Assembly: GCF_011046535.1 (NCBI RefSeq)
Contig: NZ_CP049257.1
Span: 4,340,001 to 4,404,000, forward strand
Reading direction: 5' to 3'
From: Nocardioides anomalus
GTDB lineage: Bacteria > Actinomycetota > Actinomycetes > Propionibacteriales > Nocardioidaceae
DNA length: 64,000 bases
Shown: positions 11,094 through 17,752 of the stretch, one piece after another
Layout: every line of letters begins with the position of its first letter
How positions within the stretch are numbered: the stretch's first letter is position 1
Made by a program: the position numbers and the translations under genes
The notes under the pieces: model-generated
The model's database searches: none
Told to the model about the DNA's origin: nothing
Seen by the model: the letters and a program-made list of their open reading frames with translations, nothing else

Positions 11094-11124
11094 GGCCGCT
11101 GTCTGCCCAGGGAGGACAGCGGCC
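11094..11124 (-). terminator. Hairpin at the end of the HTH-TPR regulator gene
   Basis: Perfect 10-base arms (11094-11103 and 11115-11124) around an 11-base loop. It touches the last base of the regulator's stop codon and is well placed to end that minus-strand transcript. Confidence 0.55.
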
Positions 11125-12494
11125 TACGCGTCGGTGCGGGCGCGCGACGGCGCGATCCCGCTGCAGGCGGCCGCGCGGCGGTAGGCGTCGAGCGCCTCGT
11201 GCACCGAGCCCGCCTCGTCCAGCGACGCGGCGAGCCGGAACCACAGCTCGGCGGCCGAGCGGTCCTGGGCCTGGGCCTCGAGCGCCTCGGCGGCGGCGGC
11301 GTGCTGTCGGGCCGCGTCGGCGTCGTCACCCGCGACTGCCGCGGCCTCACCCAGGAACAGCCGCACCTCCACGTCCAACCGCGCGACCCCCCGGGGGAGG
11401 TCCACCAGCACGGCCCGGCCGGCCTCGCGCGCGCCCTCGACGTCGCCGGAGAGCAGCTCGGCCCGCGCCAGGTGGAGGCGGTTCCGGCACAGGTCGACCT
11501 GGCTGGCGCTCGACCAGGACAGCATGGCCTCGGCCGCCTCGAGGTTGGTGCGGGCCTCCTCGACCTCCGGCGGGTCCAGGCGCAGCAGGAGGATGCCGAG
11601 CTCGGAGCGCAGGCGCGCGAGGTTGCGGTTGTCCTCGGCGTCCTCGAGCAGCCGCAGGGCCTTCGCGGCCAGGGGGACGGCCGCGGCCACCGCGCCGCGC
11701 TCGGACTCCACGATGCTCGCGTTCCAGTACGCCGACGCCTTGGCCACCGGCGTGCCCAGCTCCTCGGCCCGCTCGATCGCGCGCCGGCACAACCGGGCCG
11801 CGTGGGCCGCGTCGCCGCGCAGGAAGTGCGCCGCCGCCACCGTCACCGTGAGCTGCACGGCCTCGTCGGAGCCCTCCAGCCCCAGCCCCTGCAGCGCCTC
11901 GAGCTCCCGCTCGCCGGTCTCCACCGCGCGGCCGAGGTCTCCGCTCTCGCGGTAGCAGCGACTCAGCGCCACCGCCGCGCGCACCGAGTCGGCCGAGCGG
12001 TCGCCCACCTCGGCCCGGAAGTCCTCCAGGGCGATGATCGCCTCGTCGAGCCGCCCCGTCGCCTCCAGGGCGGTCGCGTGGGTGAGCCTGGCGCTCTGCA
12101 CCAGCCCGGTGTCCGCGACGGGGGTGGCCGCCAACGCCGCGAGGAGCTCCTCGAGCTGCAGCAGCGCGGCGTCCGGCGATCCGCCCCGCAGCGTCAGCTC
12201 CGCGTGGTCCAGCGCCACCTGCATCCGGGTCAGCGTGGGGTCCGGGGCACCGGTGAGCAGGGCCAGCGGTGAGGCGTTCAGCCGTTCGGCCAACCGGAGC
12301 AGCACGGAGAGGTCCGGGCGCCGCTGGCCGGACTCGATCCGCGACACGTAGCCGACGCTCGCCGCGCCGTCCGCCAGCTGGGTCTGGGTCAGTCCCGCCA
12401 GCAGGCGAGCCTGCTTGAGCCGTGCCCCCAGGGCAACCGGCTCGACGGTCGCCAACAGCTCAGCGAGGTCGTCCGGCACGCGCACATTGTGCAC
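11124..12494 (-). CDS. HTH-TPR transcriptional regulator, paralogue of the 15338 gene
   Basis: About 456 residues. An N-terminal XRE-type helix-turn-helix (LGARLKQARLLAGLTQTQLA through VSRIESGQRRPDLSVLLRLAERL, about residues 20-65) is followed by about 370 residues of helical repeats of TPR type. The repeats contain KASAYWNAS, which recurs in the 15338 protein as RASAYWNAS; the two align along their whole length. Proteins of this shape bind DNA at one end and a peptide or protein with the repeats. The GTG start at 12494 has an AGGGAG site just upstream; the frame extends to 12548. I found no secreted-peptide gene beside this copy. It lies about 100 bp downstream of tRNA-Arg on the same strand. 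Confidence 0.82.
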   Translation of the reverse strand: MHNVRVPDDLAELLATVEPVALGARLKQARLLAGLTQTQLADGAASVGYVSRIESGQRRPDLSVLLRLAERLNASPLALLTGAPDPTLTRMQVALDHAELTLRGGSPDAALLQLEELLAALAATPVADTGLVQSARLTHATALEATGRLDEAIIALEDFRAEVGDRSADSVRAAVALSRCYRESGDLGRAVETGERELEALQGLGLEGSDEAVQLTVTVAAAHFLRGDAAHAARLCRRAIERAEELGTPVAKASAYWNASIVESERGAVAAAVPLAAKALRLLEDAEDNRNLARLRSELGILLLRLDPPEVEEARTNLEAAEAMLSWSSASQVDLCRNRLHLARAELLSGDVEGAREAGRAVLVDLPRGVARLDVEVRLFLGEAAAVAGDDADAARQHAAAAEALEAQAQDRSAAELWFRLAASLDEAGSVHEALDAYRRAAACSGIAPSRARTDA

Positions 12495-12539
12495 GGGCTC
12501 CCTGTGGGGACGCTCGGCACGCTCGGCCCGGAGACGCAA

Positions 12540-12571
12540 CAGCCGCAACCGACCGAGGTCGACTGCGGCTG
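12540..12571 (-). terminator. Hairpin downstream of tRNA-Arg
   Basis: Perfect 8-base arms (12540-12547 and 12564-12571) with a 16-base loop, starting 23 bp beyond the 3' end of tRNA-Arg on the minus strand. It could end the tRNA transcript before the regulator gene. Confidence 0.4.
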
Positions 12572-14958: not shown

Positions 14959-15016
14959 AGGCAAATCCTGGCAATCGCCAGCACTGGCCTGAACCAGTGT
15001 CCGGGCAGGCTGAAGG

Positions 15017-15071: not shown

Positions 15072-15200
15072 TCAGCAGCACCAGCCGCTGCCACCGGTGC
15101 GGGCCGAGGCCACGCCGCCGGGGGCAGCCTGCGAGAGGCCGAAGACGCTGAGAACGGCGACCAGGGTGGCGACGGCGAGACGGGCGGGCTTGCGGTTCAT
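15072..15200 (-). CDS. Small secreted peptide (42 residues) with Trp-Cys-Cys tail
   Basis: An ATG at 15200, preceded by a GAGGGAG ribosome site at normal spacing, opens a 42-codon gene ending at TGA (15072-15074). The product has a basic N-terminus (MNRKPAR), a hydrophobic core (about residues 8-23) and small residues around SQAAPGGVASA, so it looks exported. The mature tail would be close to ARTGGSGWCC. It is divergent from the HTH-TPR regulator at 15338, with 137 bp and two palindromes between them. I do not recognise a family. A secreted signal peptide sensed by the regulator, or a small modified peptide, are the main possibilities. Confidence 0.7.
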   Translation of the reverse strand: MNRKPARLAVATLVAVLSVFGLSQAAPGGVASARTGGSGWCC

Positions 15201-15219
15201 GTTGTGCTCCCTCAGAGTT

Positions 15220-15238
15220 GTGTGGGTCCCTCCCACAC
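15220..15238. promoter_or_regulatory. Palindrome in the peptide/regulator divergent promoter
   Basis: GTGTGGG and CCCACAC arms of 7 bases around a 5-base spacer. It lies 20 bp upstream of the peptide start, downstream of a TTGACT (15244-15249, minus strand) that could be its -35 box. That is the expected place for a repressor site. Confidence 0.45.
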
Positions 15239-15267
15239 CGACGAGTCAAGAACAGGCAAGCGCCTCG

Positions 15268-15281
15268 CGCCAGTTCTGGCG
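15268..15281. promoter_or_regulatory. Second palindrome in the same divergent promoter
   Basis: CGCCAGTTCTGGCG is a 14-base dyad with 6-base arms. It sits between the two likely -35 elements of the divergent genes and could be an operator for the adjacent HTH-TPR protein. Confidence 0.4.
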
Positions 15282-15298
15282 TCACCAAATCGAGGGAA

Positions 15299-15330
15299 TT
15301 GACACGAATCAGCACATTTCAGGGCAAGAT
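15299..15330 (+). promoter_or_regulatory. Possible promoter of the HTH-TPR regulator
   Basis: A perfect -35 box TTGACA (15299-15304) is followed after 20 bases by CAAGAT (15325-15330). Transcription would begin at or next to the ATG at 15338, giving a leaderless or nearly leaderless mRNA. That would explain the lack of a well-spaced ribosome site. The spacer is longer than the usual 17. Confidence 0.4.
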
Positions 15331-15337
15331 GTGGTGT

Positions 15338-16729
15338 ATGGCTCCTGAGTTGGCTCACGCGCTGACCACCGTCGACCCCTCCCAGCTCGGGGCGCGGATC
15401 AAGGCCACGCGCGTGTCGCTCGGCCTGACCCAGGCCGAGCTGGCCGGCAAAGAGGCATCGATCGCCTTCCTGTCGCGCATCGAGACCGGCCAGCGACGCC
15501 CAGGTCCCGAGCTGCTCGGATCCCTCGCAGAGCGCCTCGGCGTGACGGTCGAGTTCCTGGTCATCGGTGAGGGCTGGGAGGACGCCCGGCGCCTCGAGCT
15601 CCAACTGGACCACGCGGAGCTCTCCCTGGTGGGCGGCGAGGCGGAGCAGGCTCTGCTCCAGGTGCGCGACGCCCTGACCTCCGTCTCGTTGGACAACGTT
15701 CCAGGCGGACGCAATCGCGCTCGCTACGTCGAGGCTGCTGCCCTCGACACCCTGGGCCAGCCCCAGGCCGCCCAGGCCATGCAGGCGCTGCTCGCGGACG
15801 TGAGCGATCCCGCCATCCGACTCAAGGCAGCGACCGCGCTGTGCCGCATCTGGCGTGAGCAGGGCCAGCTCGAGCGCGCCATCGCGTGTGCTCGAGGCGA
15901 GCTCGGCGACATGGCCGATGGTGTCCTCGCGAGCGAGGAGGGCGTCCGCCTAGCCGTGACCCTGGCCGCCGCTCTCTACATGTCCGGCCGAACCGCTGAG
16001 GCCGCTGAGCTGTGTGACCGTGCCATCGCCGAGTCCGAGCGGCTCAGCTCTCCCCTTGCGCGCGCGTCGGCGTACTGGAACGCCTCCACCATCCGCGCCA
16101 ACTCCGGCGACGTCGCCGAGGCGCTCACGCTCGCGAAACGAGCACTGCACCTGCTGGAGTCCACCGAGCGCGTGCGCGACCTCGGTCGACTCCGCACCCA
16201 GATGGTGTGGATCCAGCTGCAGACCGACGAGCCGCAGCTGGACGACGCCCGCGAGCAGCTCCGCCTGGCCGACACCGAGCTCGACTGGAGCGAGGCCGGC
16301 CCCGCGGACCGAGCGCGCAACCAGATCGTGCAGGCGAAGGCGATGCTCATGGCCGGAGAGGCCGAGGAATGCCGTGCGGTCGCCCAGGCCGTGCTCGCCA
16401 CGGCCGACGACGACCTCGTCATCATCCGGACCGAGGCGCTGACGCTCCTGGGCCAGGCCGCTTGGTCGCTCGACGACCGCGAGGGCGCCCAGGCGTCGTA
16501 CCGGCAGGCCATCATGCTGCTGACCGGCGCGGGTGCCGACCGCGAAGCGGCCCAGATGTGGTTCGAGCTCGGCACCCTGGCTGCGCAGGCCGGGCTGCTC
16601 GCGGAGTCGGCTGACGCCTTCCGTCGGGCCGCCGCCTCGACCGGCCTCAGCGCGCGCCTGCCTGTCGTGACCCAGCCGGCGACCAGCCCGCAGCAGACGC
16701 CGCACCACGCGCCCGCGGGGCGGTTCTGA
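15338..16729 (+). CDS. HTH-TPR transcriptional regulator beside the peptide gene
   Basis: A 463-residue protein. Residues about 15-65 form an XRE-type helix-turn-helix (LGARIKATRVSLGLTQAELA through LSRIETGQRRPGPELLGSLAERL). The remaining 390 residues are TPR-like helical repeats with RASAYWNAS and Trp-rich turns, ending in a Pro/Gln/His-rich tail. It is a full-length paralogue of the 11124-12494 protein. The layout, with a DNA-binding head, TPR body and an adjacent divergent gene for a tiny exported peptide, is that of RRNPP peptide-sensing regulators known mainly from Firmicutes. ATG at 15338 is chosen by alignment with the paralogue; ATG at 15329 is an alternative. The next regulator gene starts 9 bp after its stop. 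Confidence 0.84.
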   Translation: MAPELAHALTTVDPSQLGARIKATRVSLGLTQAELAGKEASIAFLSRIETGQRRPGPELLGSLAERLGVTVEFLVIGEGWEDARRLELQLDHAELSLVGGEAEQALLQVRDALTSVSLDNVPGGRNRARYVEAAALDTLGQPQAAQAMQALLADVSDPAIRLKAATALCRIWREQGQLERAIACARGELGDMADGVLASEEGVRLAVTLAAALYMSGRTAEAAELCDRAIAESERLSSPLARASAYWNASTIRANSGDVAEALTLAKRALHLLESTERVRDLGRLRTQMVWIQLQTDEPQLDDAREQLRLADTELDWSEAGPADRARNQIVQAKAMLMAGEAEECRAVAQAVLATADDDLVIIRTEALTLLGQAAWSLDDREGAQASYRQAIMLLTGAGADREAAQMWFELGTLAAQAGLLAESADAFRRAAASTGLSARLPVVTQPATSPQQTPHHAPAGRF

Positions 16730-16738
16730 CCGATCGCC

Positions 16739-17752
16739 GTGCCGGGCTACGGGGCTGAGGAGCGCGCGCTCTTCGAGGACGACGCCACCAAGCTCTACGA
16801 GGAGATCTGCCAGCGCGGCGGGGTGGCGGTCTCGGACTACCGGATCGCCGAGGGCGGCGAGCTGCGGGCGGCGTTCGACCTGCTGGTGGAGATGGGCCTC
16901 GTCGTCCACGACAGCGAGCAGGAGGCGTGGGTCCCGGAGGACCCGACGACGGTGCAGTCGCGGATCGTCTCGCCGCTGAGCCAGCAGGCGGCCAAGTTGC
17001 TGGCGGAGAGCTCGCAGTGGTCGTCGGCGTTCAGCCAGCTGACCCAGGCGTGGCGGCGGGCGCCGCAGTCGTCGTCGCGGGGACCGTTCACCTACCTGCG
17101 CGACAGCGCGATCGACTCCTTCCTGGAGCAGATCGTGGCCGAGTGCGAGGAGGAGACCCTCACCGCGCAGCCGCAGGCGGGGCGCGACCCGCGGTTCCTG
17201 GCCATGGCCGCGCTGCGCGACACCGAGATGCTCGAACGCGGGGTCAAGATGCGCACGCTCTACCAGCACAGCGCGCGGCGCAGCTCGGTCACACACAAGT
17301 ACGTCGCCGCGGTGACGTCGCGGGGCGCCGAGGTGCGCACGCTGGACGAGTTCTTCAACCGGATGATCGTCATCGACCGGCGGATCGCGGTGATCCCCAA
17401 CCAGGAGGACCTCTCGGTCGCCGTGGCGATCCGCGAGCCGGCCGTCGTGGCCTACCTCGTCGACGTCTTCGAGCGCTCCTGGGAGCGCGCGCGGGCCTTC
17501 ACCAACCGCGAGACCTCGCTGATGAAGGACATCGCCATCGAGCAGCGGTCGATGACCATGCGGATGCTCATCGAGGGCCACAGCGACCCGGTCAGCGCCA
17601 AGCGGCTCGGGGTGAGCCCGCGGACCTACGCGGGCTACGTGGCCGACCTCAAGGCGGAGTACGACGCCGCGACGCGCTTCCAGCTCGGCTACGTGATGGG
17701 CCGGATGGGGGTCAGCGGCCACGAGGAGCCGGACGACGAACCGGCGGAGTGA
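16739..17752 (+). CDS. TrmB/LuxR-like transcriptional regulator
   Basis: A 337-residue protein starting with GTG 9 bp after the HTH-TPR gene, so probably co-transcribed. The N-terminal 65 residues look like a TrmB-type winged helix (LYEEICQRGGVAVSDYRIA). The middle (about 150-255) resembles the PLD-like fold found in TrmB-type regulators (TLDEFFNRMIVIDRRIAVIP). The C-terminus is a LuxR-type helix-turn-helix (SAKRLGVSPRTYAGYVADL, about 288-306). This three-part form is typical of a large actinobacterial regulator group of mostly unknown ligand. It converges with a 48-residue secreted peptide gene 182 bp downstream. Confidence 0.8.
   Translation: MPGYGAEERALFEDDATKLYEEICQRGGVAVSDYRIAEGGELRAAFDLLVEMGLVVHDSEQEAWVPEDPTTVQSRIVSPLSQQAAKLLAESSQWSSAFSQLTQAWRRAPQSSSRGPFTYLRDSAIDSFLEQIVAECEEETLTAQPQAGRDPRFLAMAALRDTEMLERGVKMRTLYQHSARRSSVTHKYVAAVTSRGAEVRTLDEFFNRMIVIDRRIAVIPNQEDLSVAVAIREPAVVAYLVDVFERSWERARAFTNRETSLMKDIAIEQRSMTMRMLIEGHSDPVSAKRLGVSPRTYAGYVADLKAEYDAATRFQLGYVMGRMGVSGHEEPDDEPAE

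Follow-up and report, generated by a model that had tools for sequence, protein, structure and literature searches.

We analyzed a stretch of 64,000 nucleotides from Nocardioides anomalus (contig NZ_CP049257.1, positions 4,340,001 to 4,404,000; hereafter, the window), in which a gene for a small, putatively exported propeptide lies divergent to a gene for a regulator that combines a helix-turn-helix (HTH) domain with tetratricopeptide repeats (TPR). The recurrence of such pairs in many actinobacteria suggests an undescribed peptide communication system. The locus is as the original prediction, made from the DNA letters alone, had described it: a 42-codon gene with a strong ribosome site, a signal-like N-terminus and the tail ARTGGSGWCC, separated by 137 bp from a divergent HTH-TPR regulator (Table 1). 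The 42-residue product, MNRKPARLAVATLVAVLSVFGLSQAAPGGVASARTGGSGWCC, starts with basic residues, continues with a hydrophobic segment and closes with a short polar tail, an export-type signal being judged from charge, hydrophobicity and an A-x-A pattern. All six database relatives with at least 67% identity over the full length of this peptide end in WCC, and no Pfam or NCBIfam model was reached above its cut-off by the peptides tried.

The specificity of the tail was assessed across the whole genome (5.12 Mb). The pattern TGGTGYTGYTRR matches 42 places and its reversed control 56, and thus shows no enrichment at the DNA level. Eleven of the 42 matches read W-C-C-stop in any frame, and only two of these eleven close a signal-bearing open reading frame (ORF), namely the window peptide and one at G000:C1:4713022, both of which adjoin a regulator of the family. 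Among the other nine, one ends a 20-residue non-hydrophobic ORF and eight end no ORF.

The regulator matches Pfam HTH_3, HTH_31, TPR_2 and TPR_8 above their cut-offs. Its AlphaFold2 (AF2) model has a pLDDT of 90.6 and, in Foldseek, ranks the PlcR-PapR7-DNA complex first, with apo ComR also matched below PlcR. The TPR part of the model matches NprR and Rap, as it does unrelated TPR proteins, and VIA-align matched 344 of the 355 residues of an NprR chain. PlcR was also reached by a profile match (E 2.4e-16), in which designed TPR proteins score higher; NprR, absent among the 60 sequence matches listed for the regulator, was matched by fold. The NCBIfam AimR model NF038310 was not reached (22.6 bits against a cut-off of 70).

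Table 1 Features of the propeptide and regulator genes, in window coordinates
Feature	Position	Strand	Basis
Terminator-like hairpin 3' of propeptide gene	14968..14981	minus	2 found in region vs 0.3 expected
Exported-type 42-residue propeptide gene, tail ...ARTGGSGWCC	15072..15200	minus	ORF listing and conserved family
Final six codons (GSGWCC) with stop codon, putative core of mature signal	15072..15092	minus	inferred from tail conservation
Shine-Dalgarno sequence GAGGGAG	15207..15213	minus	6 nt before propeptide ATG, from sequence
Hairpin in 5' leader of propeptide mRNA (outer palindrome), arms 15220-15226/15232-15238	15220..15238	minus	palindrome search
Inner palindrome CGCCAG-TT-CTGGCG, arms 15268-15273/15276-15281	15268..15281		not kept in N. 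halotolerans
TTGACA box	15299..15304	plus	TTGAC kept in N. halotolerans
GGCAAGATGTG, candidate operator half-site beside regulator start	15323..15333		identical letters in N. halotolerans
HTH-TPR regulator, 463 residues, proposed intracellular peptide receptor	15338..16729	plus	ORF, domains, fold matches
HTH domain (residues 16-74)	15383..15559	plus	HTH_3/HTH_31 matches
TPR superhelix (residues 78-436)	15569..16645	plus	aligns with TPR domains of NprR and Rap

CC-tailed peptide genes beside relatives of the regulator

Relatives of the regulator were gathered regardless of their neighbors from 98 genomes of the genus (at least 80 had some match at E ≤ 0.001, in many cases to the HTH only; every match down to E 1e-13 was taken in), from 394 genomes of the class, of which 94 reached E ≤ 1e-25, and from 36 loci on named contigs. 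Twelve places in the class sample were left out, namely fragments, pieces at contig edges and, in some genomes, second copies. This gave 194 regulator ORFs in 210 loci, with two double entries (L074 is L039, and L077 is L052). A CC-tailed ORF was defined as one of 25–110 residues with a hydrophobic start that ends in CC plus 0–3 residues within 500 bp of the regulator.

Such an exported-type ORF adjoins 114 of the 194 regulators (113 of 192 without the double entries), compared with 0–2 of 194 in 20 runs with dinucleotide-shuffled flanks and 0 of 559 random window places. The conserved small ORF beside orthologues, on which the original prediction had staked itself, was thus found. When entries with a common exact 60-residue stretch are thinned, the count is 98/164, and 50/67 in the genus sample; in a stricter count by the last two residues, CC is found 101 times and the next commonest tail 8 times.

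Among 120 distinct peptides, the median length is 41.5 residues and 114 end exactly in CC, the peptides having been selected for CC near the end. Under a lenient pattern, an [AVSG]-x-A site follows the hydrophobic core in 113 of these 114. Tryptophan occupies position -3 in 50 of the 114, tyrosine in 13 and phenylalanine in 11, and the conserved tail is at minimum CC plus a commonly aromatic residue. A GW-type tail, which had been anticipated in relatives, is not general, and the double cysteine, first taken to be unusual, is the hallmark of most peptides found.

All but one of the 124 gene copies (a count in which L039/L074 appears twice) are encoded on the other strand from the regulator: 77 are downstream and convergent and 46 upstream and divergent. 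The remaining copy is codirectional. An upstream-only scan gives few peptides because most lie downstream. In 23 non-overlapping gene pairs, to which some loci contributed more than one copy, the counts of differences at the three codon positions are 147, 97 and 239, and the ratio of nonsynonymous to synonymous substitution rates (dN/dS) is 0.41, as expected for a translated frame under selection.

In a tree of 187 full-length regulators (FastTree; one pair identical), the type of neighbor is clustered, requiring 29 changes compared with 85.5 in shuffles; near-copies contribute to this clustering, and several branches are long and the deep joins unsure. The clade of 87 rows that contains the window has a CC peptide in 73. 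Within the window's own clade of six, five loci (L008, L009, L010, L040 and L055) have divergent CC peptides, and inspection by hand of the sixth, N. flavescens (L123), revealed no candidate peptide. At four loci of family f21 (L159, L161, L163 and L166), two different CC-tailed exported ORFs were observed, one on each side of one regulator.

Other tails and wider distribution

Labeling 209 full-length regulators by their neighbor (with the L039/L074 double included) gave 119 with CC peptides, 19 with W-P peptides, 9 with other exported peptides and 62 with none. Three of the 19 W-P labels (L066_3545, L156 and L175) turned out on inspection to be spurious ORFs, and L175 has a better exported ORF. 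The Cys-free peptides within the class were picked by eye, without a control of their own. Sister groups in the tree have other exported peptides at this position. Those of family f18 end in FGWNHPG, YGWGWPG, SIGWVYPG, SPWQWPI and GPWGYPI, and repeated tails occur in two further families: divergent exported ORFs of family f4 carry GNWPDPM three times (L120, 77 residues) and twice (L197, 75 residues), and exported ORFs beside the regulator in family f20 carry DISWP three times (L117, G472) or DIGWP twice (L213, G263). The latter resemble multi-pheromone precursors, tandem pheromone copies being documented for Phr precursors in the accessible text of PMC11343458.

Outside the class, a divergent exported ORF, mostly of 28–33 codons, was found at 13 of 22 further regulators; the controls gave 0–1 of 22 (20 shuffles) and 4 of 600 (random stretches of the window). 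In 12 of these 13, the last eight residues include W or F/Y-P, a tail pattern chosen after inspection; examples are GFPWPK, GYPWPK, ANWPHH, AGWPKH, APWPHCC and APWPPCC. The minimal precursors, L224–L248 from other classes of the phylum, would be left with about five or six residues after the predicted cleavage of the signal sequence. The tails APWPHCC and PDWPGMCC (family f21) provide a link between the W-P and CC forms.

The pair is also present on a plasmid. Plasmid pADI95-16a of Streptomyces sp. ADI95-16 encodes WP_123083198.1, a 71-residue protein annotated as hypothetical that ends in KDIPLCC and lies codirectionally downstream of the regulator. Streptomyces plasmids account for 20 of 25 plasmid records matched; among five plasmid matches inspected, a CC peptide is present at L218 and L222, and none was seen at L219, L220 and L221. 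In Nonomuraea gerenzanensis, a peptide ending in ...GDAGCC lies beside the regulator. A mobile-element origin was considered and set aside. One phage-type match, MT836207.1 (L223), is an unannotated faecal scaffold named 'Bacteriophage sp.' on which no CC peptide was seen upstream of the regulator and which is cut off on the downstream side. The regulator on this scaffold is 42% identical and located at the edge, and the scaffold may be a bacterial contig.

Intergenic DNA and neighboring genes

Two palindromes and a TTGACA box had been noted between the two genes, and all three are present. Their conservation is partial: in N. halotolerans (two relatives with identical rows where they overlap, counted as one comparison), the inner palindrome is not kept and the outer one occupies the same place with different letters. 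A sigma-70-type promoter scan found no promoter, the TTGACA box notwithstanding. Of 67 thinned sequences from upstream of propeptide genes of the Nocardioides clade, 18 contain TTGACA..AT (0.2 expected) and 21 contain TTTGCCA (1.8 expected), both motifs having been chosen from the very sequences in which they were counted. TTTGCCA also occurs upstream of 11 of 58 regulators in convergent loci (1.1 expected). Outside the Nocardioides clade, motifs are enriched weakly or not at all (e.g. TTTGACA, 0/32).

RNA hairpins directly before the ribosome site reach z < -1.5 in 33 of 99 leaders, compared with 8 of 99 control stretches; the window's own leader hairpin stretch is not significant alone (z 0.18). 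Strong hairpins at this position were observed, for example, in L039, L049, L033 and L012.

The gene that follows the propeptide gene encodes PEPCK and is convergent to it. On the other side, a 337-codon ORF without a Pfam match (16739-17752, plus strand) begins 9 bases past the regulator stop and may be co-transcribed with the regulator. The window also contains a paralogous HTH-TPR regulator, about 40% identical (11124-12548, minus strand), for which no candidate peptide was found and which is possibly an orphan receptor. Solute-binding proteins of the SBP_bac_5 type have seven matches in the genome and are not specific to the peptide–regulator pair.

Interpretation and relation to known systems

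The pair is probably a self-contained, RRNPP-like module of a peptide pheromone and its receptor, working as the RRNPP(A) systems of Bacillota do and spread through Actinomycetota. Sequence and fold provide the gene pair, its conservation, the selection on its coding frame, the export-type N-terminus and a TPR superhelix like those of NprR, Rap and PlcR, and the actinobacterial RRNPP counterpart proposed originally gains support from neighbor conservation, coding conservation and fold; we infer export, cleavage, uptake, binding and an effect on transcription. The propeptide would be exported and cut after an A-x-A-type site, leaving mostly 13–26 residues, and further trimming may yield a short peptide from the C-terminus (about GSGWCC in the window). 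This peptide would be re-imported, possibly through an oligopeptide ABC transporter, and bind the concave face of the TPR domain, thereby altering the action of the HTH domain on the divergent promoter region, including that of the propeptide gene. Lineage-specific tails (WCC, YCC/FCC/MCC, W-P, NWPDPM, DISWP) are as expected if the signals are private. A broader reading, to which we give only tentative credence, is that of a phylum-wide pheromone language of Actinomycetota, read by HTH-TPR receptors, in which a W-P-x-C-C-like signal has split into W/Y/F-C-C and W-P dialects, with the CC dialect perhaps redox-gated. As part of the same reading, the vicinal cysteines may form an unusual ring or pair outside the cell, and only the reduced (or only the oxidized) form may be read, such that the receptor would report both population density and redox state.

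Small exported peptides next to regulators are often effectors, and a mature length of mostly 13–26 residues is compatible with a bacteriocin-like or surface-active product, regulated by an HTH-TPR protein that responds to another ligand. We consider this unlikely, since no immunity, modification or export gene was seen to recur: among the 37 sources compared (the 36 named loci and the window), no family of neighboring ORFs of at least 110 residues was found in more than seven, the regulator and frames antisense to it excepted, although small or misframed genes can be missed when ORFs are picked by length. In addition, the minimal precursors outside the class would leave only about 5–6 residues after the predicted signal cleavage, and the tandem tail repeats fit pheromone precursors. 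Even less likely is a redox or metal module, in which the vicinal cysteines of the exported peptide would coordinate metal or be joined by a disulfide, with the regulator as a sensor of thiol or metal stress. The predominance of exact CC ends, albeit among peptides selected for CC near the end, and the higher frequency of receptor C226 in CC pairs speak for it, but sister receptors have Cys-free peptides at the same place (FGWNHPG, SPWQWPI, GNWPDPM, DISWP) and no receptor cysteine is common to all CC pairs. A disulfide partner in the receptor was sought and rejected, as no Cys column fits.

A short ORF that closes with adjacent Cys codons also recalls the polycysteine short ORFs of mycobacteria, which Canestrari reportedly described in 2020 as cysteine-responsive leaders. 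Attenuators of this kind are leaderless, co-directional with the gene they control and upstream of it. Gene order contradicts this explanation, which we regard as highly improbable: 77 of the 124 copies are convergent to the regulator, and the window gene is followed by a terminator-like hairpin and the convergent PEPCK gene. The window gene is, moreover, Shine-Dalgarno-led with a conserved export-type N-terminus, and Cys-free versions exist. GC-rich genomes are rich in spurious ORFs (96 of at least 30 residues in 12 kb here), but the controls refute a chance ORF, leaving it a negligible probability: the shuffled flanks, the dN/dS value and the genome-wide specificity of W-C-C-stop sites all stand against it.

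The accessible parts of published surveys present the sensing of re-imported peptides inside the cell as a trait of Bacillota (Firmicutes) (PMC10075063, PMC13220807, PMC12700828, PMC9765709). Within the same limits, a screen with RRNPP_detector was run on 7,974 Firmicutes and 47,982 viral genomes; its search logic, a small exported propeptide beside a TPR receptor, matches the pairs found here, and no actinobacterial candidates are named (PMC10075063). A 2026 FEMS review takes its RRNPP examples from Firmicutes (PMC13220807), a 2025 structural phylogeny deals with Bacillota and its accessible text contains no words starting 'actinobacter' or 'actinomycet' (PMC12700828), and that of a 2022 RRNPPA paper has no word starting 'actino' (PMC9765709). 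The signals named for Actinobacteria are gamma-butyrolactones and other small molecules (PMC10075063, PMC13220807), and the accessible text of a 2016 review of actinobacterial quorum sensing mentions cyclic or modified peptides in general terms and not 'RRNPP' (PMC4748050). No actinobacterial RRNPP system was found in titles and abstract starts of the open-licence PubMed Central (PMC) literature; an earlier description in subscription papers or preprints is possible. A conserved peptide–receptor pair, present in Nocardioides, on a Streptomyces plasmid, in Nonomuraea and in many further actinobacterial families, would give simple synthetic peptides access to the behavior of the phylum that is the main producer of antibiotics. 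The tails are directly orderable test molecules, and the double-cysteine end raises a chemical question of its own.

The window pair shares features with several known systems. The layout of a receptor beside a tiny precursor resembles Rgg-SHP and ComR-ComS of streptococci, in which a receptor with an XRE-type HTH and TPR lies beside a very small precursor; the SHP and ComS tails and export route differ from those of the window peptide. Rap-Phr differs in that Rap has no HTH, and AimR-AimP in that the window regulator falls short of the AimR model and no phage context is seen at the window. NprR-NprX and PlcR-PapR of the Bacillus cereus group have, as here, an HTH followed by a TPR superhelix and an adjacent small exported propeptide, the C-terminal end of which is the signal in NprX and PapR. 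Unlike these, the actinobacterial pair belongs to another phylum, usually has its propeptide on the opposite strand and carries a CC or W-P tail.
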